Positions 3,501 to 62,062 of a DNA stretch of 64,000 bases are shown in pieces; position 1 is the stretch's first letter; every line of letters starts with the position of its first letter. Source of the DNA: a virus. The stretch spans positions 16,004 through 80,003 of IMG/VR virus record IMGVR_UViG_3300029914_000015; one strand, given 5' to 3'. The position numbers and the translations under genes are program-made. The notes beneath the pieces are model-generated. The model saw nothing but the letters and a program-made list of their open reading frames with translations, was not told where the DNA came from and made no database searches.

Positions 3501-3969
3501 ACCAACTCCACCAACAACTGATACATTAAGTAATGATTTTTCAACGCTTACTAATTTCAAAATGATTTCAGATGAGCTTATATTTAACTCCGCTCAGTTC
3601 GTTCCACTATTTGGGAGTAAAGCAGACTATTCACTTCAAGCAACTTTTGTTGTTGTAGCAAATCAAAATATTTCTATTGGTTCTGGAGAAATTGCAAGTC
3701 AAGTCATTAATAATGTCAACAACTATTTCTCTATTGGTAATTTTAGCTTTGGTCAAACTTTCTATTGGGCACAATTAAGTAATTATATTTTAAGTCAAAT
3801 GGGAAATATTATTAGCGCAATTCATTTAGTTCCAAGTGCTGGCAACTTGTCTTATGGTGCTCTTGAACAAATTTTATGCAACCCATATGAAATATTTATA
3901 AGTTCTGCAACTGTTCAGAATGTATCAGTTGTTGCTTCTTTAAACAATTTGAATTTGAGGATTAGCTAA
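511..3969 (+). CDS. 6: gp6-like baseplate wedge protein (baseplate J family)
   Basis: A 1152-residue baseplate wedge subunit, much longer than T4 gp6 (about 660). The N-terminal part has the family signature: an early FINYLQ helix, a FRFDMNARENFLSTAQTR segment, then a NYLANLVNYQPTRN segment. A VFGDGVFGAMPIGT segment is the typical baseplate-J glycine turn. gp6 forms the ring joining wedges and binds gp25, which is encoded just upstream. A frame extension to a TTG at 481 exists, but I chose ATG 511 because a late-promoter octamer lies exactly 5 nt before it and the sequence upstream has no Shine-Dalgarno. The extra length is in Asn/Ser-rich beta-strand-like sequence, probably added tail domains. 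Confidence 0.85.
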   Translation: MATSSQITTNFGVQDWTKIYQSFSNPDLSSYDFATLRKSFINYLQAHNPENFNDYINSSEYIALVDLIAFMGQSMSFRFDMNARENFLSTAQTRNSVNYLANLVNYQPTRNLEANGYLKINSISINENVYDSLGNNLNGIAINWNDHTNTNWLDQWNSIVNAILVNSQTIGNPGNSNIINGINCSEYGVSTSTGQIPPYTFNAIIDNDSMNFEIVNPTSVGQSYIYEVDPENSSQFNLLYETDGLGYSSVNTGFFLYFKQGSLTSQSFNIASPLPNTTISLAATGINNSDVWLYQLNSDGSLTLWSQVPAIYGENTTFNNLPTTEQTIYSITNNTNDAVTLVFGDGVFGAMPIGTFICFTRSSNGLTYRINPSEMSNITLSIPYNSKTNRNQLFTVRASLQYTVGNSAGTETLANIKLKAPQSFYSQNRMVNGQDYNSFPFTQFSNLLQIKAVNRTSSGVSRYLDVIDPTGKYSSTNIFGDDGFMYLDSSIITNNYTYSNINNLASIIETQIANIISGSSTLNFILNNYPLISPTDNIIWNMVLTDNTSSSGWLSNAATGNLITLSDPTFNGYLNTSLGNILQFTAPGPSALFPFGQAFDTNNNIVAKTSSTLSFNQKAYIYAAITGNPVNNGIGNDISMNGVNVDGTGAILLTQKIPLGAVLSNILPFFSPFLPQNVIQNMINYINAGNAFSLEYHPENIINNQPSFWVINQGLPLNFNPAIYGSSFIAPTAVGATVTNSWTLAFVPGTSPNNFTVYQRQNTYYFGSQIQTSFYFDSNAKVYDPINSTTLTDTITVLQTNSAPVNTLNLGLTQDIPVDVSATVNEINGTVDTSRVVIESSGIESTGIPINPFFFNDCVGNNNFIFLVTDNSQNTTTLIPSGTTQVVIVTSPSIINNNLYSYADGTIVFSSSNQAFYKISRSGAVASKTMLNNPGDTLTYSYYIGRQNLKFQYQHNAADSRRIDPSPANIIDMYCLEASYATAYQQYVTDQTGQISKPTPPTTDTLSNDFSTLTNFKMISDELIFNSAQFVPLFGSKADYSLQATFVVVANQNISIGSGEIASQVINNVNNYFSIGNFSFGQTFYWAQLSNYILSQMGNIISAIHLVPSAGNLSYGALEQILCNPYEIFISSATVQNVSVVASLNNLNLRIS

Positions 3970-4008
3970 GCAAATATAATTATATTCTTGATATACGGTA
4001 TTTTCAAT

Positions 4009-19934: not shown

Positions 19935-20528
19935 ATGAAAATATTTGAAGTAATTGATCCTTTAAATTTCAACTCGATAAAAGAATTTATAGAAATCAAT
20001 TGCTCAGATATACTTAAATTTTATAAAGAAACTGGAAATATGCTATATCGAGGCATAAAAAACAATAAACCATATTTAATTAACAATCCTGTTAAATATA
20101 GAACACCAGTAGATACTCCTGTGAACATTCAATATATAGTAGATGTGAAACTTGAGGCAGCAGGATTTACAGCATTAAGATCAAACAGCATTTTTTGTTT
20201 TGGAAATTCTTATAATCCCAAATTTTATGGTAGAGTATATATGGTTTTTCCTTTCAATGGTTTTTCATATACTTGGTCTTTAAAAATTAAAGATTTATAT
20301 GACGACTATGCTAGTGTATCTATGTTTTCAGGTAAAGCAATTAAAGATATGGAAAATATGTCTCCAAAAGAAGTCGTTGATATTTTTGATTTTGTTTCAA
20401 CAAATTTAAAAACTGCTTGTAATACTCCCAATGAAATACTAATTCATGGAAAATGTTTATTAGTAAACGCTGAATTATATGAAAATAAAATAAATAAATT
20501 TATCTCTTTTTATTATTATCCCAATTAA
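19935..20528 (+). CDS. ADP-ribosyltransferase-like effector candidate (paralogue 1)
   Basis: A 197-residue member of a five-gene paralogous family in this window. The layout fits the ADP-ribosyltransferase fold: an arginine strand (LYRGI), a serine strand (ALRSNSIFCF), a central VYMVFPFNGFSYTW strand, and a late glutamate strand (NEILIHGKCLLV). In true ARTs these supply the R, S and E residues that hold NAD+ and catalyse transfer, but the usual second acid of the ExE pair is not seen. The N-terminus MKIFEV carries the M-x-[IL]-x-E signature shared by many accessory genes here. It begins 1 nt after the fibre stop codon and so is probably expressed late. T4 Alt, a head-packaged ART, is the functional model; the assignment is inference. 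Confidence 0.5.
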   Translation: MKIFEVIDPLNFNSIKEFIEINCSDILKFYKETGNMLYRGIKNNKPYLINNPVKYRTPVDTPVNIQYIVDVKLEAAGFTALRSNSIFCFGNSYNPKFYGRVYMVFPFNGFSYTWSLKIKDLYDDYASVSMFSGKAIKDMENMSPKEVVDIFDFVSTNLKTACNTPNEILIHGKCLLVNAELYENKINKFISFYYYPN

Positions 20529-35934: not shown

Positions 35935-36204
35935 ATGAGAATAAGCGAAGTTAACAATTCGACGTTAGATATAACTAAATTGAAGTGGAAAGGAGAACTT
36001 CAAAAGAAATCGTATCAATTGAGAGTTAGCGGAGAAGGATATGGCGAAGTTGGTATGTTTTTAACAACCAATAATAAAAATGATTGGAAAATTTTTTATG
36101 TATTTGTAGATAATGATTGGAAGAATACAAATTTGAAACATATGATGTATGTAAAAATGAAAGAAATTGCTAAAAAATACGGAGCAAAATTACATGCTGC
36201 TTAA
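35935..36204 (+). CDS. GNAT-related fragment with effector-type N-terminus
   Basis: An 89-residue protein starting MRISEVNNS. The following DITKLKW matches the start of the GNAT modules fused in the upstream polyprotein (DISKLKW), and NTNLKHMMYVKMKEIAKKYG corresponds to the acetyl-CoA helix region, though the G-x-G loop is gone. The acetyltransferase fold is cut short by the overlapping next gene, so it is probably degraded or inactive. It shows that the N-terminal I-x-E of a stand-alone module occupies the same place as the internal I-x-E linkers. Confidence 0.5.
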   Translation: MRISEVNNSTLDITKLKWKGELQKKSYQLRVSGEGYGEVGMFLTTNNKNDWKIFYVFVDNDWKNTNLKHMMYVKMKEIAKKYGAKLHAA

Positions 36205-36871
36205 TGAATTTGACAAATCGAAAGGTTTTTCAGCTTATGTAAAAGAAGATGAGACTAAAATTTTAATATTCTTAAATAAGCATTGCAGTGAAATTATGTC
36301 TTTGTATAGAGAATATGGAAAAGTATTGTATCGCGGCATCACACGATATTTTGGCAGTAATATATATAATTTCAAAGATGGAGATGTATTTTTCGGAAAA
36401 TCCCCATCTGATAGACACCCAATAGATATACCATCTTCAGTACAGAAGCAAATAGATAGTAAATTACAAAAAAGTGGGTTTGAAGCATTAAGATCAAACA
36501 GCATTTTTTGTTGTTCTTCTAAACTATCAGCGCAAAAATATGGTGACCTACATATTATATTTCCATTGGATGGATTTTCATATACATGGTGTAATACTGC
36601 TATTGATTTATATGACGAATATGTAAGAGCTTTGACTCCCACTCCTTGGGGTGAGACACCATCACAAGAAGATATTAATAAAGCAGAAATATTTAAAGAA
36701 AATTTATATAAGCTTTCTTCAACTGATTTTATTAGAGATTATGGTTTCAAGAATACAGATTTAACTCATGCAATTATTAGAAATAATGAAATTTTAATTC
36801 ATGGTGACTATATCGCAATGAGCGAGAAATTAGGAAATAAAATAATATTTAGTAATAGGAGAAGTATATAA
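36194..36871 (+). CDS. ADP-ribosyltransferase-like effector candidate (paralogue 2)
   Basis: A 225-residue paralogue with LYRGITRYFG (arginine strand), ALRSNSIFCCSS (serine strand), LHIIFPLDGFSYTW and NEILIHGDYIAMSE (glutamate strand). All three ART-type positions are kept, as in paralogue 1. Start chosen at ATG 36194 (MLLNEFDKSKG), which fits the shared M-x-[IL]-x-E signature; an upstream in-frame ATG at 36167 lies inside the preceding gene. It overlaps the Dps start by one base (TAATG). Confidence 0.5.
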   Translation: MLLNEFDKSKGFSAYVKEDETKILIFLNKHCSEIMSLYREYGKVLYRGITRYFGSNIYNFKDGDVFFGKSPSDRHPIDIPSSVQKQIDSKLQKSGFEALRSNSIFCCSSKLSAQKYGDLHIIFPLDGFSYTWCNTAIDLYDEYVRALTPTPWGETPSQEDINKAEIFKENLYKLSSTDFIRDYGFKNTDLTHAIIRNNEILIHGDYIAMSEKLGNKIIFSNRRSI

Positions 36872-37308: not shown

Positions 37309-37908
37309 ATGAAAATATGTGAACTACATATCGATGCTTCTGCTTTTGAACAGCAAGGATTAATTCTTAAAAAAGCTTTGGAAGAAGTGTCAGTATTATG
37401 CTCAGAATTTTTAAAATTTTATGAAGAAGCTGGACCAATGTATCATGGATTTCAATCAGCACCAAGTAATATTTTTGTAGGGGAACCACATACAGATAGA
37501 AAACCATTATCGCTTACTTATAAAGAACAATATGAGATAGATAAAAAATTATCATTGGCAGGATTTCATCAATTGCGTGGCAATAGTTTGTTCTGTATAG
37601 GAAATATTACAACAGCATCTGAGTATGGTGCAGTTTATCAAATTTTTCCAAAGAATGGTTTTAGATATACTTGGAGTGATTTTTGCGATTTAGTTACAGA
37701 TATAAGATATACAGAAATGATGTATGATCTTCATTCTTTAAGTCCCAATGATTTTGCTGATAAGTATGAATTTAGGGAAAATATGGGATTATCATTGGCT
37801 TTACAACAAGGAAAAGAAATATATCTTGGTGGAGAATTTATTGCAATATCAGAATTAATGGTAACTAGACATTCAAATACATATTTACAGTGGACAAAAA
37901 CTTTATGA
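37309..37908 (+). CDS. ADP-ribosyltransferase-like paralogue 3, arginine lost
   Basis: A 199-residue paralogue starting MKICELH. The serine strand QLRGNSLFCIG, the VYQIFPKNGFRYTW strand and the last strand KEIYLGGEFIAISE are recognisable. The first strand reads MYHGF where paralogues 1 and 2 have LYRGI, so the NAD-contacting arginine is replaced by histidine. It is either a diverged enzyme or a pseudoenzyme. Its stop overlaps the next start (ATGA). Confidence 0.5.
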   Translation: MKICELHIDASAFEQQGLILKKALEEVSVLCSEFLKFYEEAGPMYHGFQSAPSNIFVGEPHTDRKPLSLTYKEQYEIDKKLSLAGFHQLRGNSLFCIGNITTASEYGAVYQIFPKNGFRYTWSDFCDLVTDIRYTEMMYDLHSLSPNDFADKYEFRENMGLSLALQQGKEIYLGGEFIAISELMVTRHSNTYLQWTKTL

Positions 37909-38720
37909 AAATAAACGAAATCAGTAAAAAAATAAAGATTGGAATGCATCCCTCAAATGAGCCAGAAGATAAAATTGTTCAGTTCATTAAGAAAAACTGT
38001 TCTCAAATTGTAAAAGTTTATGAAAACAGTCATAGTAATTTTTTATTCAGTGGGAAAGAGTCTTATAGTGATGTATTTTTTGGCAAACCTATTAATAATA
38101 GAGCACCACTGGGAACAGACCGCAAGATCAATAATAAATTAAATAGTGTTCTAAGACAAGTTGGATTTAAAGCACGACGAGATAATAGTATTTTTACTAC
38201 TTCTATGGAAGTTACAGCGCAGGAATATGGCAAAGTATATATAATTTTTCCATTGAATGGTTTTGACTATTCGTGGTGTGCTCTTGCTGAAGATTTAACT
38301 ATGGAGTTTGATATTGGCGAAAAAAAATATAGTGTCTCCAGAGAGAATAATGAATTTTACAATGATTTGATTACATTGCTGCCACAAGAGTTTGTTCAAA
38401 AATATCATTTTAAAAATAATGAAGGATTTGAATATGCATTGACAAATGGATTTGAAATTTTGATACACGGAAGTTATGTTGCAATTAGCGAAGAATCTTC
38501 TTTATTAGAAATAATATTACCATTTTATAGATTTAATGAAGATAACGATTTAGAAGAATCAGCATCGTGCGGATCAACTAGTTCTGGATCGATTGCAACT
38601 GTCAACGGAACAAACACTCCTCCATCTGGGCAATTTTTTGGTGGAGATCCTAATAGTTCAGTATATGGAAAAATTAAGAGAAATCGTAGGAGAAGAAAGA
38701 ATGCTACTCCGAGAGTTTGA
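37905..38720 (+). CDS. ADP-ribosyltransferase-like paralogue 4, arginine lost
   Basis: A 271-residue paralogue starting MKINEISKK (chosen over an upstream ATG because of the shared leader and ATGA overlap). It keeps the serine strand (ARRDNSIFTTS), VYIIFPLNGFDYSW and FEILIHGSYVAISE, but the first strand reads NFLFSGK, without the arginine. A C-terminal extension of about 70 residues is Ser/Gly-rich (SCGSTSSGSIATVNG) and ends in a basic tail (KRNRRRRKNATPRV) that could bind nucleic acid. Confidence 0.5.
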   Translation: MKINEISKKIKIGMHPSNEPEDKIVQFIKKNCSQIVKVYENSHSNFLFSGKESYSDVFFGKPINNRAPLGTDRKINNKLNSVLRQVGFKARRDNSIFTTSMEVTAQEYGKVYIIFPLNGFDYSWCALAEDLTMEFDIGEKKYSVSRENNEFYNDLITLLPQEFVQKYHFKNNEGFEYALTNGFEILIHGSYVAISEESSLLEIILPFYRFNEDNDLEESASCGSTSSGSIATVNGTNTPPSGQFFGGDPNSSVYGKIKRNRRRRKNATPRV

Positions 38721-39588
38721 TTTGGATATGTCAAAACTAAGTTCAGGAGATGTTAAAGAAATCAATGCTAATGTTGAATCTTTATCTCTATGGATAAAAG
38801 ATCATTGTTCAGAATTTTTGAAAATGAAAGGAGCAAATGATCTCGTTCGAGGTGTTAGAGAAAACTCACCAAGTATTTTTATGGGATATCCAAGAAAAAA
38901 TAGAAGAAGTATTGAAGGAGAAATATCTACTGAGCTTACTAAAATAGTAGACAAATATATGCAAATGACTGGTTTTACTGCTCTTCGAGGAAATAGTTTA
39001 TTTTGTAATAGTGATCCTGAAATGGCTGAACCATGGGGTGAATTATATGTCATATTCCCTATAAATGGATTTACTTTTGCGTATAGTAAACGACATACTT
39101 GTTGTTCAGGGGCAAGTTATATATTTCCAACAGAAGCTATTGACGAAAATTTACGCACATATGTAGACCAAATTTCTGATTTTTGGAATCGTAAAAAATA
39201 CGATGTCCATGGATATTCAGAAAATATAAAAAAATTTTTAAAATATTGGTATACTCTTAATGAGTTTTATTCCAAAAAAGTAAATTATTTTAATATTACT
39301 ACAGTAATAAGAAATATTATTAAGACGTACAATTCTTTTACTAACGACGAAAAGGTTATGTTATCTGGTTCAGTAGTTGATCGTGCAATTATTGATCTTG
39401 GAAGAGAATTGAAACAGTTAGGAACAGATGAAATAATTGCTAAAAAATTCATAGTAAACAATAAATTGACCAATAAAAATTTGAAATGGGCTTTAGAAAA
39501 TAGCTATGATGTGTGGATTCACGGAGCATATATTGCCATTGACAGAGAATTATATATACATAATTTTGATTTATTTGAAAAACTATAA
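38701..39588 (+). CDS. ADP-ribosyltransferase-like effector candidate (paralogue 5)
   Basis: A 295-residue paralogue. Start at ATG 38701 (MLLREFDLDMSK), supported by AGGAGAA just upstream and the shared leader, overlapping the previous gene by 20 nt. It has LVRGVRENS, ALRGNSLFCNS, LYVIFPINGFTFAYS and, after an insertion of about 100 residues, YDVWIHGAYIAIDRE, where the late glutamate is replaced by aspartate. The insertion (residues 170-270) is helical and unrecognised. Confidence 0.5.
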   Translation: MLLREFDLDMSKLSSGDVKEINANVESLSLWIKDHCSEFLKMKGANDLVRGVRENSPSIFMGYPRKNRRSIEGEISTELTKIVDKYMQMTGFTALRGNSLFCNSDPEMAEPWGELYVIFPINGFTFAYSKRHTCCSGASYIFPTEAIDENLRTYVDQISDFWNRKKYDVHGYSENIKKFLKYWYTLNEFYSKKVNYFNITTVIRNIIKTYNSFTNDEKVMLSGSVVDRAIIDLGRELKQLGTDEIIAKKFIVNNKLTNKNLKWALENSYDVWIHGAYIAIDRELYIHNFDLFEKL

Positions 39589-39621: not shown

Positions 39622-42600
39622 ATGAAAAAGAAATCATTATTGGGATCAACAAAACCATACAGAAATCCAAAGTGGCTTGGCCCACAAGATAAAGTTGACA
39701 ATCTTGGCCCAATTCTTGGAGCAAAACCAAAAAAATCAAAAGTTTTGAGCACAAAATTCATGGGATGCAGCAAAAATATGACTAATAAAAATATCATTGC
39801 GGAAAATAATAAATATTCATCAAATGAAAAAGCACAACTGGCTGCTGTTCGACGAGATGGTTATGCAATTGAATGGATTGACAATCCAAGCGAAGCTGTG
39901 CAAATGGCTGCTGTTAAACAAAATGGTTATGCAATTGGATACATCAGCAAGCCAAGCGAAGCTGTGCAAATGGCTGCTATTCAACGAAATTATCGTGCAA
40001 TTGAATACATCGACAAACCAAGCGAAGCTGTGCAAATGGCTGCTGTTCGACAAGATGGTTGGGCAATTGAATACATCGACAATCCAAGCGAAGCTGTGCA
40101 ACTTGCTGCTGTTCAACAAAATGGTCGTGCAATTCAATTCATAAAAAAGCCAACAATTAATGTCAAATTAATGGCTAAATCAAAAGTTTTGAGCACGAAA
40201 TTTCAAGGTTGTTCCATAGATCGCTCCAATAGCAATATTATTTCTGAATATAAAGATGATTATAATCCATCCAATGAAGAATGGCTTAAAAATGAAATTG
40301 ATTACGCCTATGAAATTTTTAATAATGAGGAATTTCCAAGAGTGGACAGAGAAGAAGCTCATCGAAGAATAAAGCTTTTAAATGCTGAAGCAAAAAAGAA
40401 AGGATATATTGATAAGTGGAATAAAGAAGCGCAAGAAGAAGCAGAAAAGACTCATATTAAACCAGAACTTTTAGATGTTCTTGATGATGTACGAGGCTAT
40501 ATTCATCACGGGAAAACTATAAACAAAGCTGATAGTAATATGTTACATAGTATGGGAATTAGTGAAGCTGTAAACAAATATCCAATTTCTGCCAGAATAA
40601 ATCCAAGATCATTAAAAAAATTATCTTTGTTGGGGCCAGAAGATAAACTTGGATTTGGAGCAGGATTAATAACAATCACTAATAAAGTATATATTGCAGC
40701 ATGGCATTCAGAAATTCGTGCAAAACGTGGTTATGATATTTGTAGATTAAGTGAAGGAGCAATTAGAATTAGACAGGGTGGTTGGGATTGCGGAGATAAT
40801 ACAATAATTGAGTTTGGAAAATATGATGATGACACAATTTATAGACTTAAACAAATAATTCCATATGTTACTTCTCCAACAAATAAATTTAAATTAGAGT
40901 GTGATGCTCGTGGAATAAATAATGATCATTTATATGTGACTGGAAATAAAGAATATATTATGGCAGAATTGGAAGAATGGTTAACTCCAAGACAAAAAGT
41001 TCCACTTCCAGGAAGTGTTATGGCATTTCATATGCAAGAATCAAAAGAAACTCCAAAATTAACATATAGAGAGTTTGCAAACGCAAGCAAAGCAAAGAAT
41101 AAGAAGTGCCCAACTTGTGAAAGCGAATTTAAGAATGTTCACTCAGCGAATCAAAAATATTGTTCCTCGGATTGTGAAGTGAAAGGAGAGACAGTTAAAA
41201 AATTACAAGAAGCGTTTGATAAATCAATAATAAGAAAAGCTGGATTTATTCCTTATTATTTTGATAACTTTGGAAAACTCAGAATGATGTTTGTTATGAG
41301 CAGTGATCCAACTTATGGCGGAAGCAAGTGGATGATAGCTAAAGGGCATATCGATGGAAAAGAAACAGATTTACAAGCTGCTTTACGAGAAGGAAACGAA
41401 GAGTGTGGGGTTAAGCAGTCAAATATTAAATTTATTAAACTTGGGTGGAAAGGTTTAATAAAAGGTTACACAGAATCTTCTGAAATGACAATTTATATTG
41501 GAGAAGTTAAAGACCCAGTTGATTTTGATAAACCAGGTAACGAAATAAAAGCTGTTAAATGGATAACTCCAGAAGAATTTAATTCGATTGGAAGAAATAG
41601 TCAAAAATTTATTGTTGAAGCATGTGTAAACAAAATTGGAGATAAAATGCGATTTTCTGAAATAAAAGAATCAAGAAAATTTACAGTTTATAAAGATGGT
41701 GGTTTTTATGGCCCAAAATATGAATATGGATACATAGGAGTTCAAGACGAAGATGGGCATGATATGACTTATATTGGAAAGAAAAGTGTTCCCAATATGA
41801 ATATACAGCAAGCAATATCAGCCCTTAAACAACAATTTCCAGGATGTGAAGTGAAAATTAAACTATCAAAAATATCTGAAGGTATGCTCAATGGACTAAC
41901 TGTTATGTCTCTCGATCAATTTTTGGATGGCGAAAATCCAGAAGAAACTGAATTGGAAGACGAGATGTTGGGAGAAGCTGGAGAATTTGGTCTTGGTTCT
42001 AAATATCGAAACGCAAGTCATAAAGAAATGCAGGATTATCTTGATAGAACAGTATTCAAGAAGAAAAATAAACTTGATCCATACACTATGCCATATATTC
42101 ACCCAAGCAATGTAAAAAAGAATGCAGATGGTTCAGTTCCTATTATTGATGAAAATGGCGATAAGTATGATCTTGATGCTTTAAGAGATGCTATTACTAA
42201 AAGACCTAGTGGCTTACTTAAACAGAATGAGAAGATGAAACACAGTAATGGTACTGCCACAGTTTATTATAATGTTGGTTTGCCAGCATTAAAAGGATTG
42301 TCAGTTAATGAAGAAACAGGAGAATTTGTAGTTGTTGATACTTGCCCTGGTGCAGGTATTTGCAAAAATTATTGTTTCGCAATGAAAGGAAGCTATATTA
42401 TGTTTCCTGGAGTTAGCATGAAGTCTGCGCAAACATTAAATTATTTATTGAATGATCCAGAAGGATTTAAAGCAGAATTAATTGGTGAAATTTCAAAAGC
42501 AATCGCTAAATGGGATAATTTTACAGATAAAGATTTTAATAAAGGAGATGTTGAAGTTTCAATAAGGTGGCATGATTCAGGAGACTTCTTCAGTCCTGAA

Positions 42601-43083
42601 TATATGGATATGGCTTGGGATGTTGCTAGAGAATTCCCAAATAATTTGTTTTATGCTTACACCAAAATAGCTGATGTTGCAAATTCAGAGGACAAGCCAG
42701 ATAATTTTGTAATTAATTTTAGTGCTGGTGCATCTTCAACGCAAAGCAATTTAGTTAATATAAGTGCAGTTAAACATAGCCAAGTAGTGCCCAAAGATTT
42801 ATTCTATGATTTAATTGCACGCAAAGGTATTAAGCTTATTAAAAATGCAGCAGGAGCCACACAATTTAGAGGTCCAGAAGAATGGAATGAATTAAAAGAT
42901 AGATTGGCTGAAAAATATGATATAGATGTTGATACTATTTTAAGTTATGATGAATTTGTGGAAAAGAAGATGAATAAAACGCTCGGCACTAAACCAAAAT
43001 GGAATGTTACAGTTCTTCCTGGAGAAGGAGACGTTTCAGCAACAGATCCTACAGTAAAAGGTACATACTTAATGTTTCACTAA
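39622..43083 (+). CDS. 1153-residue mosaic protein: DUF4116-like repeats, zinc ribbon, Nudix, Gp88-like domain
   Basis: Order: five 22-residue DUF4116-like repeats (69-180), flanked by two copies of KSKVLSTKF-x-GCS; a helical segment (210-315); an unrecognised domain (316-472); a zinc ribbon (C496, C499, C514, C518); a Nudix box at 575-597 that fits GX5EX7REUXEEXGU except Gly at the hydrophobic U after RE; a short domain (684-753); and a C-terminal Gp88-like domain (about 790-1153) with a cysteine cluster from C908 (DTCPGAGICKNYCFAMKG). Junctions carry [IL]-x-E: NIIAE, NIISE, GISE, EIKE, KISE, and MLGE nearby. MRFSEIKE at 676-683 looks like the start of a once-separate gene. I infer a polyprotein of fused effectors. 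The Nudix part would hydrolyse nucleoside diphosphate-X compounds. Confidence 0.65.
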   Translation: MKKKSLLGSTKPYRNPKWLGPQDKVDNLGPILGAKPKKSKVLSTKFMGCSKNMTNKNIIAENNKYSSNEKAQLAAVRRDGYAIEWIDNPSEAVQMAAVKQNGYAIGYISKPSEAVQMAAIQRNYRAIEYIDKPSEAVQMAAVRQDGWAIEYIDNPSEAVQLAAVQQNGRAIQFIKKPTINVKLMAKSKVLSTKFQGCSIDRSNSNIISEYKDDYNPSNEEWLKNEIDYAYEIFNNEEFPRVDREEAHRRIKLLNAEAKKKGYIDKWNKEAQEEAEKTHIKPELLDVLDDVRGYIHHGKTINKADSNMLHSMGISEAVNKYPISARINPRSLKKLSLLGPEDKLGFGAGLITITNKVYIAAWHSEIRAKRGYDICRLSEGAIRIRQGGWDCGDNTIIEFGKYDDDTIYRLKQIIPYVTSPTNKFKLECDARGINNDHLYVTGNKEYIMAELEEWLTPRQKVPLPGSVMAFHMQESKETPKLTYREFANASKAKNKKCPTCESEFKNVHSANQKYCSSDCEVKGETVKKLQEAFDKSIIRKAGFIPYYFDNFGKLRMMFVMSSDPTYGGSKWMIAKGHIDGKETDLQAALREGNEECGVKQSNIKFIKLGWKGLIKGYTESSEMTIYIGEVKDPVDFDKPGNEIKAVKWITPEEFNSIGRNSQKFIVEACVNKIGDKMRFSEIKESRKFTVYKDGGFYGPKYEYGYIGVQDEDGHDMTYIGKKSVPNMNIQQAISALKQQFPGCEVKIKLSKISEGMLNGLTVMSLDQFLDGENPEETELEDEMLGEAGEFGLGSKYRNASHKEMQDYLDRTVFKKKNKLDPYTMPYIHPSNVKKNADGSVPIIDENGDKYDLDALRDAITKRPSGLLKQNEKMKHSNGTATVYYNVGLPALKGLSVNEETGEFVVVDTCPGAGICKNYCFAMKGSYIMFPGVSMKSAQTLNYLLNDPEGFKAELIGEISKAIAKWDNFTDKDFNKGDVEVSIRWHDSGDFFSPEYMDMAWDVAREFPNNLFYAYTKIADVANSEDKPDNFVINFSAGASSTQSNLVNISAVKHSQVVPKDLFYDLIARKGIKLIKNAAGATQFRGPEEWNELKDRLAEKYDIDVDTILSYDEFVEKKMNKTLGTKPKWNVTVLPGEGDVSATDPTVKGTYLMFH
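39832..40155 (+). repeat. 66-nt repeats, five units, within the mosaic gene
   Basis: Near-identical 66-nt units encoding A-V-Q-x-A-A-V-x-Q-x-G-x-A-I-x-x-I-x-x-P-S-E. They match the repeat genes at 61.3-62.4 kb closely at DNA level, including the shared tail that encodes KKPTINVKLMAK. Confidence 0.85.
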
Positions 43084-43091
43084 GGAAAAAT

Positions 43092-43505
43092 ATGAGACTA
43101 GATGAATATTCAAAACCAAGAGTTCCTGTAAAAGTTTTTAAAGTAGTTGATGATGAAGTTCGTACTTCATCATCTTCATTGAATATGGACCAAAAATTAG
43201 AAAAACTTGGTTGGGAATTTTTTAACGGAGGGTCTTTTGCAGCAGTATATACAAATCCTAAAAAACCATATATTCTAAAAATCAATAAACAACCGGATAA
43301 AGCTTATGCTTATTATGTGTCAATAATAAGAAAATTGCATAATAAACATTTTCCAAAAATAAGTGATTTGAAATTTATAGAAGTTAATGGTGGTCGATAT
43401 TACATATATCTTATTGAGAAATTACATAAGGCAAAATATGGAGTAGCAATAGCTAGTAGACTAGATTTTATTATGAATAATTATGAAATTCCTCTGAAAA
43501 AATAG
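43092..43505 (+). CDS. protein-kinase-like paralogue 1, N-terminal part
   Basis: A 137-residue N-lobe (MRLDEYSKPRVPVK start) of a kinase-like family: glycine-loop-like GGSFAAVYTNP, lysine strand YILKINK, and hinge-like YYIYLIEKL. It stops at TAG directly after AAA AAA. The C-lobe continues in the -1 frame (next entry), giving a 204-residue product equal in length to its paralogues. AAGGAAAA precedes the start. An ATG 93 nt upstream lies inside the previous gene and is not favoured. Confidence 0.55.
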   Translation: MRLDEYSKPRVPVKVFKVVDDEVRTSSSSLNMDQKLEKLGWEFFNGGSFAAVYTNPKKPYILKINKQPDKAYAYYVSIIRKLHNKHFPKISDLKFIEVNGGRYYIYLIEKLHKAKYGVAIASRLDFIMNNYEIPLKK

Positions 43506-43713: not shown

Positions 43714-44304
43714 ATGAATTTAAATGAATTATACAAACCGAAAATATCTAAAGATATTGATAATGAAATAAATTATCATTTCAATTATGGCGCTGGAAAT
43801 ACTCAGCAACTAAGAAATCGTCTTAAAAAATTTGGATGGATATATTTAGATGAAGGAGTTTATAGTTCAGTTTGGGGAAATGTTAAAAAATCTTATATTC
43901 TTAAAATAAATAAAGTTCCTGATAGAGCATTCGATCATTATGTTAATATAATTAAGAAAAGTAAAAATCCTCATTTTCCAAAAATAAGTGATATGAGAGA
44001 AATAGCTATTGGACCTAAAATTTATTGTGCTTATTTAATTGAAAAATTATTTAAAATTCCTGGCCATTTTGTTGGTGATAATTACTCAACTTTTTTCAAT
44101 ACAATTATTAATGCGGATCCAAAATATTCAATTTCTAAACTGTTTAATAACCATATTCCTACCATATTTAAAAAACAACCAAAACTAGTTGATGCATTAT
44201 GCATAGTTGGTTCTGAACACAATAACTATTTTATTGATATGCATTCTGGAAATATTATGCAAAGAAAAGATGGAACAATTGTTATAACTGATCCTTATGC
44301 ATAA
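43714..44304 (+). CDS. protein-kinase-like paralogue 2
   Basis: A 196-residue minimal kinase-like protein starting MNLNELYKPK. It has a glycine-loop-like GVYSSVWGNV, lysine strand YILKINK, hinge-like YCAYLIEKLF, and the loop IDMHSGNIMQRKDGTIVITD, where D-x-H-x-G-N matches the catalytic loop of the aminoglycoside-phosphotransferase/RIO group and TDP stands for DFG. The fold is much smaller than typical kinases. Substrate unknown; T4-type phages use ART and kinase activities to modify host transcription and defence, which fits an injected-effector role. Confidence 0.55.
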   Translation: MNLNELYKPKISKDIDNEINYHFNYGAGNTQQLRNRLKKFGWIYLDEGVYSSVWGNVKKSYILKINKVPDRAFDHYVNIIKKSKNPHFPKISDMREIAIGPKIYCAYLIEKLFKIPGHFVGDNYSTFFNTIINADPKYSISKLFNNHIPTIFKKQPKLVDALCIVGSEHNNYFIDMHSGNIMQRKDGTIVITDPYA

Positions 44305-45320: not shown

Positions 45321-45911
45321 TCAGCTTGCATAAGGATCAGTTATAACAATTGTTCCGTCTTTTCTCTGCATAATATTGCCGCCATGCATGTCATTGGAAA
45401 TATATGGATTTTTGATATTGTGTTTAAATTTTCCAATAATTCTGAGTGCTGTAACTAATTCTGGATTTTGTTTTAAATAATCAAGTTGCGTATGAGATGT
45501 ATTAAAAAATGTTAGTGATGAATATGGACAATCTATTATTTCACTAAAAACATTAGCTAAATGTTTCATTTCAGAACGTACATCATCTAATTTCTCAATA
45601 AGATATATGTAATATCGACCACCATTAACTTCTATAAATTTCAAATCACTTATTTTTGGAAAATGTTTATTGTTATATTTCTTTATTAAAGATACATATT
45701 GTGCATACGCAGTATCTTGTCTATCATTAACTTTTAACACATAAGATTTTTTTGGATTTGAATATACTGTACTATAATAACCAGCCCCTAGAAGAGTCCA
45801 ACCCAATTTTTTTAATTTGCCTTCTATGGTATATTTATCAGTACTGCGATCAAACACAATTTTAGAAAATTTGGCTGGTATTCTCGTTTTTGAATATTCG
45901 TCTAGTTTCAT
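45321..45911 (-). CDS. protein-kinase-like paralogue 3
   Basis: A 196-residue minus-strand paralogue starting MKLDEYSKTRIP: glycine-loop-like GAGYYSTVYSNP (42-53), lysine strand SYVLKVN with K60, HFPKIS, hinge YYIYLIEKLD, and catalytic loop NDMHGGNIMQRKDGTIVITD. Most similar to paralogue 1 on the opposite strand (both contain DLKFIEVNGGRYYIYLIEKL). A GGGGGTTATA sequence precedes ATG 45911. Active-site residues are all present. Confidence 0.55.
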   Translation of the reverse strand: MKLDEYSKTRIPAKFSKIVFDRSTDKYTIEGKLKKLGWTLLGAGYYSTVYSNPKKSYVLKVNDRQDTAYAQYVSLIKKYNNKHFPKISDLKFIEVNGGRYYIYLIEKLDDVRSEMKHLANVFSEIIDCPYSSLTFFNTSHTQLDYLKQNPELVTALRIIGKFKHNIKNPYISNDMHGGNIMQRKDGTIVITDPYAS

Positions 45912-46521
45912 TATAACCCCCAATGTATGGATCAGTTATTACAATTGTTCCATCTTTTCTTTGCATAAAATTTTCGTCATGCAAATCAATCCTAAAAAAT
46001 GGTTTAGATTCATAGCTAACTATACGCAATGCTTTAATTAATTTTGGTTGTTTTTTGAATATTTCAGGAATTGCTCCATACTCTTCAATTAGTGATTCTA
46101 AAGGTTTTTCTTCCATATTAAGATTAATTACAAAATTGAACATAGATGCATAATCTTCAGCAGTAGCTCTATTTGGAAATTCCTCTAATTTTTCAATTAA
46201 ATATGCATAATAACTTCTTCCTGTAATAAATATTTGTCTTCTATCACTAATTTTTGGAAAATGTGGATTTCTACTTCCTTTAATAACAGAAACATAATGA
46301 TCAAATCCAGGATCTGGTATTTTATTTATTTTAAGGATATATGATTTTTTGGGATTACTCCAAACCGAACTATAAACACCGGATCCTTCCAATTTCCAAC
46401 CAAATTTTTCAAGTTGATTTTTTAAATATGGAATATTAAGAGGATTATTGAAAAGATGATTCGTTATAGCATAAGTTGCGCTCTTAGATATTTTCGGTTT
46501 GTAGAATTCATTTATAAGCAT
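45862..46521 (-). CDS. protein-kinase-like paralogue 4
   Basis: A 219-residue minus-strand paralogue starting MLINEFYKPKIS: GSGVYSSVWSNP, SYILKINK, YYAYLIEKLEE and a modified catalytic loop RIDLHDENFMQRKDGTIVIT, where G-N has become E-N. The C-terminus extends past the usual TDPY end by about 20 residues because the frame runs into the next gene. Closest to paralogue 2. Its ATG is 5 nt after a late octamer, so the minus-strand block should be late and begin with a leaderless mRNA. Confidence 0.55.
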   Translation of the reverse strand: MLINEFYKPKISKSATYAITNHLFNNPLNIPYLKNQLEKFGWKLEGSGVYSSVWSNPKKSYILKINKIPDPGFDHYVSVIKGSRNPHFPKISDRRQIFITGRSYYAYLIEKLEEFPNRATAEDYASMFNFVINLNMEEKPLESLIEEYGAIPEIFKKQPKLIKALRIVSYESKPFFRIDLHDENFMQRKDGTIVITDPYIGGYNETRRIFKNENTSQIF

Positions 46522-51602: not shown

Positions 51603-53123
51603 TTGAATCAGGAAAAATTACCGCAGCATGATATGTGGCAAGAACAACTTGATTCAAATGGATTGAGTAAATGGGCAGCATATCTTCCATCAGTGAGTAA
51701 TTATTTCAGTGCATTTGTTGGACGACAAAGAGCTATGCAAAAGCACTTTGTCGATCCAGCAAGAATTCCTATTAATTTTGAAAATGGCATTGAAGGTCTT
51801 AATTGGACTAATAAGAATTTAGGATATTTTTATTATAAACCAAATCTTTTTAGTGCTGGTAATGCAAATTTAGATATTAATAAATATGATTCTAAAGAAT
51901 TAATGTTGCGAGATAGAGATAAAAAACAGAGTTTTGTTCTGGCAGATTCTGGTGGATTCCAAATAGCAAAGGGTAGTTGGGAAGCAGATTGGAAGGACAT
52001 AAACTGCCCCAAAGCTAAAGAAAAGAGAGAGAAAGTTTTATCTTGGATGGAAGCTTATGCAGATTATGGTATTATTTTAGATATTCCTTCATGGACTTGC
52101 TCTTCAGAAAAAAGCAGAAAAGCAACAGGAATTAATTCTATTAATGATGCAACTGTTGCAACTTTGATTAATAATGAGTATTTTATAAAAAATAGGACTG
52201 GAGAATGCAAACTACTTAATGTTCTTCAAGGAAGTAATCATACTGAATCTGATAATTGGTATGGTATTATGAAGAAATTTTGCGATCCAAAACAATATAG
52301 CAATCATTTTGATGGTTGGTCGTTCGCAAGTCAAAATGCTTGGGAACCGCATTTGGCATTGAAAAGATTGGTTGATTGCCGATTTGATGGATTATTAGAA
52401 CCTGGAGTTCATGATTGGGTGCATTTTCTTGGAAATTCTGATTTAGAATGGTCTTTGTTGCTGTCAGATATTCAAAGATCAATTAGAAAATATCACAATC
52501 CCAAATTAACAATTAGTTATGATTGTGCCACGCCGTTTTTAACGGCTGGATTTGGCGGAATATATTATGATACTATAGGTAAAGATAAAGATCATTGGAC
52601 TTTTTCAGTTGCTAAAGGAATCGAAGGTAAAAAATATTCAACTGACTATCGATCATTAAAAGAGGTTGGAGAACAAGATGGTTATTATTCTAAGTTTGAA
52701 GATAGCCCAATTAGTGCAAGACTTAAAATTAGTGATGTGTGTTTTCACGGACCAAAATCACTAAATAAATCAGGAAAAGTATCTAAAAATAGTTGGGACT
52801 CATTTTCATATGCTTTAATTCAAGCACACAATGTTTGGGAGCATATTGAAACTATACATTGTGCAAATAAAAAATATGATAGTGGTATTTTTCCAGCAGT
52901 AATGACTACTTTAACCAGTAATAAAAAAAATGGGTCCATTCTTTATTATGATAAATTATTTTGTAGTGATATCATAGACAGTATTTTTCAAACAAGTCAT
53001 TATGATGAAGCTATGAAATTAATAGATGATTATGATCGATATTGGATGTGCTTTCGTGGTCGTGGGAAGTGCGGATTAAAATCTAAAAATTCACAAACTA
53101 CTTTTAATAAGATATTTTATTAA
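51603..53123 (+). CDS. dpdA: DpdA-like 7-deazaguanine DNA transglycosylase
   Basis: A 506-residue protein of the tRNA-guanine transglycosylase superfamily: FVLADSGGFQIAKGSW contains the DSGGFQ active-site motif, and LTISYDCATPF carries a second conserved aspartate. folE and queE, precursor-pathway genes, lie just downstream, which points to DpdA, the phage and bacterial enzyme that exchanges guanine in DNA for a 7-deazaguanine, rather than a tRNA enzyme. The usual result is resistance to restriction. It starts at TTG with AGGAG 6 nt upstream; the next in-frame ATG is 30 nt on. The 3' end is overlapped by a homing-endonuclease remnant on the other strand. Confidence 0.75.
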   Translation: MNQEKLPQHDMWQEQLDSNGLSKWAAYLPSVSNYFSAFVGRQRAMQKHFVDPARIPINFENGIEGLNWTNKNLGYFYYKPNLFSAGNANLDINKYDSKELMLRDRDKKQSFVLADSGGFQIAKGSWEADWKDINCPKAKEKREKVLSWMEAYADYGIILDIPSWTCSSEKSRKATGINSINDATVATLINNEYFIKNRTGECKLLNVLQGSNHTESDNWYGIMKKFCDPKQYSNHFDGWSFASQNAWEPHLALKRLVDCRFDGLLEPGVHDWVHFLGNSDLEWSLLLSDIQRSIRKYHNPKLTISYDCATPFLTAGFGGIYYDTIGKDKDHWTFSVAKGIEGKKYSTDYRSLKEVGEQDGYYSKFEDSPISARLKISDVCFHGPKSLNKSGKVSKNSWDSFSYALIQAHNVWEHIETIHCANKKYDSGIFPAVMTTLTSNKKNGSILYYDKLFCSDIIDSIFQTSHYDEAMKLIDDYDRYWMCFRGRGKCGLKSKNSQTTFNKIFY

Positions 53124-53352: not shown

Positions 53353-54027
53353 ATGAGCGAAGGAAAAGCTGATCCATTGTTGGGAATGATTATTAAAAAA
53401 ATTCTGCAAGAAAAAGGTGTGGAAACTCCTACGTCAGATTCTTCTATTTTTAATAGTGATTATCAAAAAATTGAATCAATAGAAATAAATTTTCGTAATA
53501 TAATGAAGATGTTGAACTTAGATTTATCTGATGATAGTTTGAAAGAAACTCCCAGAAGATTTGCTAAAATGTTAGTGTATGAAACAATGTGGGGATTGGA
53601 CTATAATAATTTTCCAAAATGTACAACTGTCGAAAATAGGATGCTATATGACGAAATGGTAACAGTAAAAGATATAACAGTTCATTCAGTTTGTGAACAT
53701 CATTTCCAAAATTTTGATGGATATGCAACCATTGCTTATATACCACATAATAAGATTTTGGGATTGAGTAAATTTCCTAGAATTGTTGATTTCTTTTCTA
53801 GAAGACCACAAATTCAAGAGAGATTAACAGAACAAATATTTTATGCTCTTAACTACATTTTAGAAACAGACAATATTGCTGTAGCAATAAATGCAGAGCA
53901 TTCATGTGTTCGCAATCGCGGTATTCGTGACCAAAATAGTAGTACCATTACTTCTAGACTGGGTGGAGTATTTAAAGAGAACCCTAGCGCTAAAGCAGAA
54001 TTTATGGCATTTTTTAATTCTAAATAA
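53353..54027 (+). CDS. folE: GTP cyclohydrolase I
   Basis: A 224-residue enzyme with SVCEHHFQNFDGYATIAYIP (zinc Cys and catalytic His), ILGLSKFPRIVDFFSRRPQ, and AEHSCVRNRGIRD (second zinc Cys). It converts GTP to dihydroneopterin triphosphate, the first step to preQ0. With queE and dpdA it forms part of a DNA 7-deazaguanine modification pathway; queD and queC are not in the window and may be encoded elsewhere or supplied by the host. It has its own promoter and is followed by a terminator. Confidence 0.9.
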   Translation: MSEGKADPLLGMIIKKILQEKGVETPTSDSSIFNSDYQKIESIEINFRNIMKMLNLDLSDDSLKETPRRFAKMLVYETMWGLDYNNFPKCTTVENRMLYDEMVTVKDITVHSVCEHHFQNFDGYATIAYIPHNKILGLSKFPRIVDFFSRRPQIQERLTEQIFYALNYILETDNIAVAINAEHSCVRNRGIRDQNSSTITSRLGGVFKENPSAKAEFMAFFNSK

Positions 54028-54668: not shown

Positions 54669-55067
54669 ATGACAAGTTGGCATTTTGGTGGTAATTGTTA
54701 CTTTAAATATCGTTCAGGATCGATTTATTTAATTGATCGACCATGGTGGTTAGCATTGGTTGTATGGTTCAGTGATGAAATTCTTGGAAGAATATGCGAT
54801 TTATTGATGTGTATTCCTCTTCCCAAATATGGAAGAATAGTAGAGCAAGGCCAAGTTTTCACGATTAAAGAATATTATGGAACAGTTGGTGATTTATTCC
54901 ATATTTATATTCATGATCCAGTATTTACTTGGTGTTGGACACATAAAAAGAAAAAAGAAATTATAGTTGACGTTGGATATGATAAATTAAAAGAATTATT
55001 CAATGACTATGATGGCAAGTATTTTAAAGATATAGAAGATAGACATAAGGAATATGATGGCAATTAA
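54669..55067 (+). CDS. hypothetical protein with a hydrophobic segment
   Basis: A 132-residue protein with a Trp-rich hydrophobic region at about 27-50 (PWWLALVVWFSDEIL) that may be membrane-associated, then a basic KKKKEIIVDV stretch. Overlaps queE by 14 nt, so is translationally coupled to it. Function unknown. Confidence 0.5.
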   Translation: MTSWHFGGNCYFKYRSGSIYLIDRPWWLALVVWFSDEILGRICDLLMCIPLPKYGRIVEQGQVFTIKEYYGTVGDLFHIYIHDPVFTWCWTHKKKKEIIVDVGYDKLKELFNDYDGKYFKDIEDRHKEYDGN

Positions 55068-55923
55068 AATAGCAGAAATTTTTGGTGGTAATAAAAAAGG
55101 TGGAACAATTCAAGGCGAAGGATATAGTGGAACTCCTAGTGTATTCGTTCGTGTTTTTGGGTGCAACAAAACTTGTGCTGGATTTAATATGCCACTGGGA
55201 GAAAAAAGCACAGAAAGATTTCAAGTTGATCCAACCAAATATACTGATTTTAAGCAATTACCAATATTAAATTTTGGATGCGATTCTTACAGTTCTTGGG
55301 ACCCTCGTTTTAAAGATTTAAGTCCAGAACAAACCATAGAACAAATAGTTGATAGAATTCAAAATTTGCTTAGAGATGGAAAATTCAATCAGGATTGCCA
55401 TTTGATTTTAACTGGCGGAGAACCCTTACTTGGATGGCAAAAGCAGTATCCAGAGTTATTAAAAGAAATTTATAATAGAAATATGAATCTCACTGATCTT
55501 ACTTTTGAAACTAACGGAACAAAGAAAATTTCCAGTGAATTAAGAAGAGGATTATGTGATTGCTATAATTTTCATCATTTAAATACATTATTTTCAGTTA
55601 GTGCAAAATTGCCTTGTTCTGGAGAAACTTGGGAATCATCTATTTTACCAGAAGTAGTGATGGATTATACAACTATTCCAGGAAGTAAAGTTTATTTGAA
55701 ATTTGTGGTTTCTAATGATGAAGATTTGAATGATGTAAAACAAGCAGAAAAAGAATATAGAGATGCTGGATTCAAAGGATCTATATATTTGATGGCAGAA
55801 GGATCAAATAATGTAAATAATTCTCATAATGCTACAAAAGTAGCAGAAATGGCAATTGAAAATGGTTATAGATATTCACCAAGATTACAATGTTCTTTGT
55901 GGAATAACAAGTGGGGATTTTGA
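55054..55923 (+). CDS. queE: QueE-like 7-carboxy-7-deazaguanine synthase (radical SAM)
   Basis: A 289-residue radical-SAM enzyme. The N-terminus has GGTIQGEGYSGTPSVFVR (substrate strand) and the cluster region FGCNKTCAGF with C37 and C41. The third cysteine is not two residues on but at C76 (NFGCDSYSSWDPRF), an arrangement I recall from other phage QueE proteins. LTGGEPLLGWQ is the SAM-binding GGE motif. It converts carboxytetrahydropterin to CDG on the path to preQ0, feeding DpdA. ATG 55054 or 55057 could be used; AAGGA lies 3 or more nt upstream. Confidence 0.8.
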   Translation: MMAIKIAEIFGGNKKGGTIQGEGYSGTPSVFVRVFGCNKTCAGFNMPLGEKSTERFQVDPTKYTDFKQLPILNFGCDSYSSWDPRFKDLSPEQTIEQIVDRIQNLLRDGKFNQDCHLILTGGEPLLGWQKQYPELLKEIYNRNMNLTDLTFETNGTKKISSELRRGLCDCYNFHHLNTLFSVSAKLPCSGETWESSILPEVVMDYTTIPGSKVYLKFVVSNDEDLNDVKQAEKEYRDAGFKGSIYLMAEGSNNVNNSHNATKVAEMAIENGYRYSPRLQCSLWNNKWGF

Positions 55924-58175: not shown

Positions 58176-58182
58176 ATAATTG

Positions 58183-58560
58183 ATGCTAACAAAACTACAA
58201 TGGGAAGTAAAAATATATCAAGACTATCGTGATATTTATAAAATGGAACTTCCTATTTTAGATAATTTAAGTTGGTGGATTAAAGGAAAAGGAATGCATC
58301 TAACAGCAGATGGATTTTTTAGATTTAATCAAGTAAAAATAGAATTTTATAAATTTGAAATAGATTATAATACTATATGGTCTGGATCAATAGTATTGGG
58401 ATTGGCAAAAATGCCTTGCCCATATTATTGTGATCATAATAAAAATCAAAAGTCTTCTCTATTATATATAGTCGAACAACAATATGCTGTTTTATTGAAA
58501 ATGTTAGATTTGGACTTAAATACTTTTACAAAGGAATTTATTAAAAATGAAATCGTTTAG
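58183..58560 (+). CDS. hypothetical protein
   Basis: A 125-residue protein (MLTKLQWEVKIYQDYRD...) with LTADGFFRFNQVKIEFYKF in the middle and a CPYYCDH cysteine-histidine cluster. ATG 58183 is preferred over the TTG just before it. Its stop overlaps the phosphoesterase start by 14 nt. Function unknown. Confidence 0.5.
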   Translation: MLTKLQWEVKIYQDYRDIYKMELPILDNLSWWIKGKGMHLTADGFFRFNQVKIEFYKFEIDYNTIWSGSIVLGLAKMPCPYYCDHNKNQKSSLLYIVEQQYAVLLKMLDLDLNTFTKEFIKNEIV

Positions 58561-59041
58561 TGATTTTTATAAAATAATGGAAGCAGCAGAAAAAAAGAAA
58601 GGAACATACTCTTCTTTCCAGTTGAATAGTGAAAGTAGAAAAAAATTGCATGATTGGTTGGAAACCAATAAAATAGAAAATTTGGTCGATCTAGATGAAT
58701 ATCATGTTACAGTTACTTATTCTCGAAAAGCTGTTCCAGAAATTTATGATATAAAACCAAAATTGCCAATAAAAGTAAAAGCTATTGGTTGGGAAGTTTT
58801 TGGTGATTTGTTGGTGCTAAAATTGGAAAAAGATAAATTAATTGGAATTTATTCCCAATCTATAGAATTAGGAGCAGAATCAGATTATGATGAATATATT
58901 CCTCATGTTTCTGTGGCCAAAAAATATACAGGAGAAGTTCCAAAGACATATCCAAAATTTTATATTACGTTGAATGAATTTAAAGTTGAAGAATTAGATT
59001 TTGATTTTAGTTATTCATTTTCAGAGGATGAAAAAGAATAA
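58547..59041 (+). CDS. 2H phosphoesterase, Acb1-like anti-CBASS candidate with capsid-targeting-like leader
   Basis: A 164-residue 2H (LigT-like) phosphoesterase. The two catalytic H-x-[TS] motifs are at H53 (EYHVTVTYSR) and H120 (YIPHVSVAKK), 67 residues apart. T4-type Acb1, which cleaves cyclic oligonucleotide signals of CBASS defence, has the same size and nearly the same spacing. The N-terminus MKSFSDFYKIMEAAEKK resembles the T4 capsid-targeting peptide (MKTYQEF...), including an I-x-E before an alanine, suggesting the enzyme is packed in the head and delivered with the DNA. Other 2H enzymes act on RNA ends or cyclic nucleotides, so the substrate needs testing. Confidence 0.65.
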   Translation: MKSFSDFYKIMEAAEKKKGTYSSFQLNSESRKKLHDWLETNKIENLVDLDEYHVTVTYSRKAVPEIYDIKPKLPIKVKAIGWEVFGDLLVLKLEKDKLIGIYSQSIELGAESDYDEYIPHVSVAKKYTGEVPKTYPKFYITLNEFKVEELDFDFSYSFSEDEKE

Positions 59042-59685
59042 TGGAAGATTGGAAATCAACCCCGATTTATATAACTAATTTTAATAATCTGGAAAGAGGA
59101 TTTAGAAAATTGGTTAATTGGCTTTGGGACGCAGGTATGACAAATATTGCTGTGATTGATAATGCATCAACATGGGAACCATTGCTTTGTTATTACAAAA
59201 CATCAGGATTGAATATTATCAATAGAACTTCCAATCTTGGCCATGATGCATTTTGGAAACTTAATATAGTTCAAAATACAAGATTTATAGTAACTGATCC
59301 TGATGTTGTTCCAGATGCAAATTGTCCAGCAGATTTGGTAAGAAAAATGCACGAAGTTGCTGATAGATATGCTCCTGCAAAAGTTGGCCCTGGATTACGA
59401 ATAGATAATCTTCCAGATCATTATCATAGAAAACAATTAATGTTGGACAGTGAAGTAAATTATTGGACTAGAAAAACTGCTGATAATGATTCTTACTTTG
59501 CTCTTATAGATACAACTTTTGCTTTATATAATCCAGGATGGGGAATTTGGCCATCAGCGACACACATAAGGCTTGATTTTCCATATGTTATGGAGCACTT
59601 GCCATGGTATGAAGATAGCAATGCAATTAATGAAGAACGAGATTTTTATAAAAGAACAGCATTGCCAGGAATTAGCAATGCATAA
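59041..59685 (+). CDS. glycosyltransferase-like protein
   Basis: A 214-residue GT-A-type protein: PIYITNFNNLERGFRKLVNW at the start, AVIDNASTWEPLL, and the metal motif FIVTDPDVVPD near 85-92. Shorter than usual for GT2 enzymes. It overlaps the phosphoesterase stop by one base and is followed by two methyltransferases, so the three may build or decorate a modified sugar, base or surface glycan. Confidence 0.6.
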   Translation: MEDWKSTPIYITNFNNLERGFRKLVNWLWDAGMTNIAVIDNASTWEPLLCYYKTSGLNIINRTSNLGHDAFWKLNIVQNTRFIVTDPDVVPDANCPADLVRKMHEVADRYAPAKVGPGLRIDNLPDHYHRKQLMLDSEVNYWTRKTADNDSYFALIDTTFALYNPGWGIWPSATHIRLDFPYVMEHLPWYEDSNAINEERDFYKRTALPGISNA

Positions 59686-61294: not shown

Positions 61295-62062
61295 ATGAAT
61301 GAAAAAGAACAACTAGCTGCTGTTCAACAAAATGGTTGGGCAATTGAATACATCAGAAATCCAAGCGAAGCTGTGCAACTGGCTGCTGTTCAACAAAATG
61401 GTTGTGCAATTTACCACATCAGCAAGCCAAGCGAAGCTGTGCAACTGGCTGCTGTTCAACAAAATGGTTGTGCAATTGAATACATCAGAAATCCAAGCAA
61501 AGCTGTGCAACTAGCTGCTGTTCAACAAAATGGTTGGGCAATTGAATACATCAGAAATCCAAGCGAAGCTGTGCAACTAGCTGCTGTTCAACAAAATGGT
61601 TATGCAATTGAATACATCAGAAATCCAAGCGAAGCTGTGCAACTGGCTGCTGTTCAACAAAATGGTTATGCAATTCGAGGCATCAGCAAGCCAAGCGAAG
61701 CTGTGCAACTGGCTGCTGTTCAACGAAATGGTTGGGCAATTGAATACATCAGAAATCCAAGCGAAGCTGTGCAACTAGCTGCTGTTCAACAAAATGGTTG
61801 TGCAATTTACCACATCAGCAAGCCAAGCGAAGCTGTGCAACTGGCTGCTGTTCAACAAAATGGTTGTGCAATTAAATACATCAGGAATCCAAGCGAAGCT
61901 GTGCAACTGGCTGCTGTTCAAGAAGATGGTTGGGCAATTTGCTACATCGACAAGCCAAGCGAAGCTGTGCAACTGGCTGCTATTCAACGAAATTATCAGG
62001 CAATTCAACACATAAAAAAGCCAACAATTAATGTCAAATTAATGGCTAAATTGCTGTCTTAA
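61295..62062 (+). CDS. DUF4116-like repeat protein, 11 repeats
   Basis: A 255-residue protein made almost wholly of 11 units of 22 residues (LAAVQQNGWAIEYIRNPSEA type). It resembles DUF4116 repeats, known from large phages and giant viruses without assigned function; the units probably stack as an alpha solenoid. It ends KKPTINVKLMAKLLS, like the repeat block in the 1153-residue mosaic protein. Upstream it has the palindrome AAATAAATTTATTT and TTAGGA as ribosome site. High DNA identity between units predicts copy-number change by recombination. Confidence 0.7.
   Translation: MNEKEQLAAVQQNGWAIEYIRNPSEAVQLAAVQQNGCAIYHISKPSEAVQLAAVQQNGCAIEYIRNPSKAVQLAAVQQNGWAIEYIRNPSEAVQLAAVQQNGYAIEYIRNPSEAVQLAAVQQNGYAIRGISKPSEAVQLAAVQRNGWAIEYIRNPSEAVQLAAVQQNGCAIYHISKPSEAVQLAAVQQNGCAIKYIRNPSEAVQLAAVQEDGWAICYIDKPSEAVQLAAIQRNYQAIQHIKKPTINVKLMAKLLS
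61301..62026 (+). repeat. 66-nt tandem repeat array (11 units)
   Basis: Units are nearly identical at DNA level, with CCAAGCGAAGCTGTGCAACT recurring in almost every unit. The same unit occurs in the genes at 39.8-40.2 and 62.1-62.3 kb. Confidence 0.9.

Follow-up and report, generated by a model that had tools for sequence, protein, structure and literature searches.

A phage Acb1-family phosphodiesterase with a putative T4-type capsid-targeting leader: a candidate anti-CBASS enzyme, probably delivered in the virion

The closest known enzymes to the protein described here are Acb1 of phage T4 (gp57B) and of Erwinia phage FBB1 (PDB 7T26/7T27), which share with it the family, the fold, the HxT/Hx[ST] tetrad, the glutamate E141 and the stacking aromatics; the catalytic and binding residues of Acb1 were assigned by Hobbs et al. 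(PMC9117128). The N-terminus, on the other hand, differs, since T4 Acb1 has only MMEFKDFST and no cut site, whereas the present protein has an 18-residue leader containing I-x-E/A (a slash marks the predicted cut here and below). This leader resembles those of the T4 internal proteins IPI, IPII and IPIII, with aromatics at positions 4 and 7, an acidic residue at 6 and I-x-E/A, but their cargo is different: the T4 proteins are injected inhibitors of type IV restriction, and ours is a cyclic-nucleotide phosphodiesterase whose packaging is putative. The T4 internal proteins are a precedent for the packaged-protein strategy (PMC12373910). In IPIII, residues 1-10 are enough for packaging, residues 4 and 7 target the protein and residues 8 and 10 govern its processing, and gp21 cleaves after L/I-x-E (PMC9026906). 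The strategy proposed below, an anti-signalling protein delivered with the genome, also has a parallel in Tad1 of phage phiKZ, which has been described as an injected protein that blocks both CBASS and Thoeris (PMC13282480), although Tad1 sequesters the signals whereas Acb1 cleaves them. Finally, the Acb1 proteins of the cultured Straboviridae phages phiAS5 and Aeh1 of Aeromonas, about 30% identical to ours, carry comparable leaders (MIRSFSEFITEAA and MLKSFSEFTEA, respectively) in genomes where an S77 protease is present.

The window, that is, the whole stretch of 64,000 nucleotides analysed here, corresponds to bases 16004-80003 of the virus record IMGVR_UViG_3300029914_000015, which totals 80,003 bases. 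T4-like baseplate, recombination and replication genes, named by reading, were recognized in the first 16 kb and the window, and no head genes were found in these two parts, which make up the whole record. By their polymerase, the nearest known phages are the jumbo phages Phosso, Atu_ph07 and 121Q, about 40-45% identical, and Acb1 is absent from these three. The acb1 gene, a member of PF23474, is an open ATG reading frame of 164 codons on the plus strand (58547..59041). Its start is overlapped by a hypothetical ORF on the same strand that matches no family (58180..58560), its stop overlaps by one base the following ORF (59041..59685, plus strand), and both are probably in the same operon as acb1. 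A scan for the T4 late promoter (TATAAATA) showed no enrichment, and is uninformative in DNA so AT-rich.

The initial annotation had called this protein Acb1-like, a call that proved sound and even too modest, since the protein is above the family cut-off, has the Acb1 fold and keeps the substrate-binding residues. Pfam Acb1 (PF23474) is its sole Pfam match, covering residues 18-155 (E 9.5e-21, 74.5 bits against a cut-off of 27), and both histidine motifs lie within this full-length match. It also matches phrog_755 (E 1.7e-22), whereas the only convincing sequence match in the PDB is FBB1 Acb1 (7T26, E 4.8e-7); PADLOC gave no match for it. In the AlphaFold model, computed with the window protein and 22 related loci as input, pLDDT is 90-98 across most of residues 21-150, and the top solved folds are the Acb1 crystal structures 7T26 and 7T27 (E 1.7e-9 and 1.1e-8). 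Model and Pfam together place the 2H-phosphoesterase domain at residues 19-155 (58601..59011, plus strand). The spacing of 67 residues noticed at first between the H-x-T and H-x-S motifs was recovered exactly, from H53-V-T55 to H120-V-S122, compared with 69 in T4 Acb1 (H44/H113). H53-V-T55 (58703..58711), invariant in the alignment, corresponds to the first catalytic motif H44/T46, and H120-V-S122 (58904..58912) aligns with the second, H113/T115, with a threonine-to-serine change relative to T4 and FBB1 (PMC9117128). E148 (58988..58990), the equivalent of E141, which recognizes adenosine (PMC9117128), is likewise invariant. The four stacking aromatics are kept in the alignment, Y12 as Y21 (58607..58609; base-stacking role from PMC9117128), W74 as F85, F107 as Y114 and W147 as F154, the placement of F85 and F154 being the least certain; the two tryptophans are thus phenylalanines here and F107 is a tyrosine. 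Acb1 has a flexible C-terminal lid; in the model of our protein, pLDDT of residues 154-164 is under 50. The assignment to the Acb1 family is therefore solid and close to certain, and cleavage of cyclic di- and trinucleotides containing adenosine is the expected activity. As an enzyme the protein is an ordinary member of a common family, 1,440 phage records matching the Acb1 protein of phiAS5.

The interest of this protein lies in its N-terminus. The likeness to T4 leaders noted for it beforehand was confirmed, the sequence being MKSFSDFYKIMEAA with I10-M11-E12 before A13. The putative capsid-targeting leader MKSFSDFYKIME (58547..58582, plus strand; motif and model) is followed by two alanines and combines F4 and F7, the targeting residues of IPIII, with the gp21-type cut signal I10-M-E12, directly followed by the small residue A13, as the T4-type L/I-x-E signal asks. 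The cut is predicted after 58582; the propeptide would then be 12 residues long, compared with 10-19 for the T4-type capsid-targeted internal proteins, and a linker AAEKKK would run from the cut to the enzyme domain (58583..58600, plus strand; alignment and model). A motif was written to cover IPI, IPII and IPIII of T4 and every in-frame ATG was scanned with it. In T4 it matched exactly these three proteins (3 of 1,357 ATGs), in the 80 kb record acb1 alone (1 of 514), and elsewhere one start in Aeh1 (1 of 2,494) and one in 121Q (1 of 2,958); the scan should be read as a calibration and not as a blind test, since the motif was fixed after the sequences had been seen. Both the leader and the histidine motifs exceed chance. 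A looser motif alone, hydrophobic-x-[DE]-hydrophobic, was rejected as a diagnostic because it is too common in T4. The enzyme proper does not include the leader, since residues 1-20 are outside the modelled domain (pLDDT 62-67, the leader being a low-confidence helix) and the chain in the FBB1 crystal has no leader and starts directly at the domain, with SGLY. The same crystal chain indicates that the leader is dispensable for the Acb1 fold.

The leaders of the Acb1 family were then compared in eighty Acb1 loci from viral contigs, reduced to 58 non-redundant proteins, 47 of which have a leader of at least 8 residues. [LI]xE, a short motif that is common in helices, was present in 30 of the 47 leaders, compared with 9.8 +/- 2.5 in shuffled leaders (none of 2,000 shuffles reached 30) and with 7.1 expected from the N-termini of neighbouring genes taken at the same lengths (maximum 15 in 1,000 draws). 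The hydrophobic-x-[DE]-hydrophobic motif at positions 3-8 was found in 23/47 leaders and 14/274 neighbours (p 4e-13), the two results not being independent because the motifs overlap in some leaders. Every leader element together was encountered in just 5 of the 58 Acb1 proteins and in 3 of the 274 neighbours. About half of the non-redundant homologues have no L/I-x-E leader, many leaders are very short, and in Acb1 leaders other than ours the residue after the glutamate is often not A, G or S. Clear examples are MTPFKTFIEE/ANTNGTY (L096), MKLEDLLE/AAMKGTY (L127), MRYQELLE/GKTSGTF (L134) and MFEFIKKLHILLE/AKKPAGDY (L105), together with MIRSFSEFITE/AAEQ in the cultured phage phiAS5. On a tree built from the domain only, the leader label is clustered and needs 12 changes, indicating that it is inherited within clades and was gained or lost several times.

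A leader of this type calls for a T4-type (S77) prohead protease. A search of short fragments with PF03420 returned nothing, the positive control being silent too, and it was repeated on complete phages. Of 20 longer relatives, 17 have the protease, among them 121Q, Phosso, Atu_ph07, Aeh1, phiAS5 and the L073 contig, the latter encoding an Acb1 46% identical to ours with the leader MKLFSEFLVEE. None was found in the 80 kb record, where the head region is missing, which is why the protease of the window phage is unseen. At the position where the T4 capsid protein has LTE/A, the capsid proteins of several phages show L/I-x-E/[AST] (LTE/S in 121Q, LME/T in Phosso, IFE/A and LAE/S in G014 and G021), as judged by eye against T4 gp23. 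From these sites, the prohead protease of the relatives very likely keeps the T4 specificity and accepts threonine after the cut. The likeness of the Acb1 leader to T4 capsid-targeting sequences is thus real and specific, and it recurs in Acb1 homologues of phages with a prohead protease.

In T4, gene 57B adjoins ipI. Morganella phage MP1 has gp137 as its 57B homologue; the next genes, gp136 (MKTFQEFINE/A) and gp135 (MKTFQEFMLE/S), are adjacent to each other and have textbook leaders beside the Acb1 homologue (gp135 and gp136, 3719-3988 and 4009-4299 of contig L157), and fusion of such a leader to Acb1 would thus be easy. Mass spectrometry of MP1 virions detected gp136 with 59% coverage and, in virion gels, two peptides of gp137 (PMC5384007). 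At this very locus, then, the leader does predict a virion protein, as gp136 shows; the detection of gp137 is weak, because the data also include replication enzymes such as dNMP kinase. The Acb1 homologue of phage YerA41 is annotated as a structural protein, and 63 particle-associated proteins were reported for this phage (PMC7354516). We set aside YerA41 and MP1 gp137 as weak virion evidence, both sets holding replication enzymes and neither homologue having a cut site. T4 gp61.1 (L035, 18966-19130) starts with the leader-like MKTFKEFIKE-D, with an aspartate after the glutamate, and is possibly an overlooked internal protein.

From these features we infer cleavage, packaging, injection and anti-CBASS action of the window Acb1, and the reading that we favour, as fairly probable, is that Acb1, a phosphodiesterase of cyclic oligonucleotides, is joined here to a T4-type capsid-targeting propeptide and delivered inside the virion. 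F4 and F7 of the leader would attach the protein to the prohead core late in infection. Cleavage behind I10-M-E12 by the S77 (gp21-type) prohead protease would then leave the mature Acb1, from A13 onward, in the head with the DNA. Ejected together with the genome at the next infection, the enzyme would degrade the CBASS signals (cyclic di- and trinucleotides), cutting them 3' of adenosine, before any phage gene is expressed. The alternative that we take most seriously, although we rather doubt it, is an ordinary Acb1 synthesized within the infected cell, its extension being a variable tail or an amphipathic helix with no role in packaging. Acb1 is indeed active without such a leader, T4 having only 9 residues there and the FBB1 crystal chain none, the T4 enzyme confers protection when expressed (PMC9117128) and the leaders of many homologues are very short; against this, the window leader matches the determinants mapped in IPIII, and the family leaders are far more regular than the N-termini of neighbours or shuffled sequences.

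The two remaining alternatives concern the substrate and the start codon. A 2H phosphoesterase, packaged or not, whose main substrate is different (RNA 2',3'-cyclic ends or another defence signal) seems improbable to us. PHROG 755 is labelled RNA ligase, LigT-type RNA phosphodiesterases also match the model fold, the second motif is HxS and identity to Acb1 is just about 25-30%. However, Acb1 is the only Pfam match and is above its cut-off, the best structures are those of Acb1, not of LigT, which ranks behind 7T26/7T27, and the Acb1 glutamate and stacking aromatics are retained. Translation from M11 would give MEAAEKKKGTY and remove the leader altogether; we give this very little credit. An in-frame ATG does exist at 58577, but a ribosome-binding site is absent before it, whereas an AAAGGA sequence read 11 nt 5' of the first ATG (58530..58535, plus strand) resembles one. 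Relatives with 46% identity, moreover, carry aligned leaders (MKLFSEFLVEE and MKRKTFIDYLNET, in which MKLFSEF and MKRKTFIDY align with the window leader). M1 is thus favoured by the better ribosome site and by these aligned leaders.

An Acb1 injected with the genome could erase a fast chemical CBASS signal before any phage gene is read. If delivery in the virion is true, a signal-destroying enzyme joins the list of injected phage proteins, and packaged anti-defence proteins could be found by their leader sequence, as was done for the ip genes of T-even phages. In the literature available to us, no earlier description of a packaged Acb1 was found. Only tentatively, and with considerable doubt, do we raise the wider possibility that virion delivery of Acb1 by protease-cleaved leaders is widespread in T4-related and jumbo phages and perhaps ancestral, MMEFKDF of T4 being then a remnant or an uncleaved form of the same signal.

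A second class of leader, M[KRLN][IL]xE[FILVY] (e.g., MKINEISKK, MRLDEYSKP and MLINEFYKP), was observed in 10 of the 70 genes of the record and in 3 of 274 elsewhere (p 1e-5). These genes start at 19935, 35935, 36194, 37905, 38701, 43092 and 43714 and, on the minus strand, at 45308, 45911 and 46521. The leader resembles that of T4 Alt (MELITE-LFDED) and may mark another set of packaged effectors. Most of the five phrog_11975 paralogues (19935-20528, 36194-36871, 37309-37908, 37905-38720 and 38701-39588), of unknown function, carry it; their LRxNSIF and EI(L/Y)xxGxxIA motifs are ADP-ribosyltransferase-like by eye. It is also present in two paralogues related to phrog_15752, a protein kinase family (43092-43505 and 43714-44304), to which the ORFs at 45321-45911 and 45862-46521 are similar; the paralogues are probably truncated or mini kinases. 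Several ORFs of the window (39622-43083, 61295-62062 and 62123) contain repeats some 25 residues long (EAVQLAAVQQNGxAIxxIxxPS). TGT-like (51603-53123), GTP cyclohydrolase-like (53353-54027) and QueE-like (55054-55923) genes, recognized by reading, together suggest a 7-deazaguanine DNA modification. On contig L013, a gp46-like gene (5428-8310) has an apparent intein, also recognized by reading, within its Walker A motif (GSRNGCGK...THNTT).
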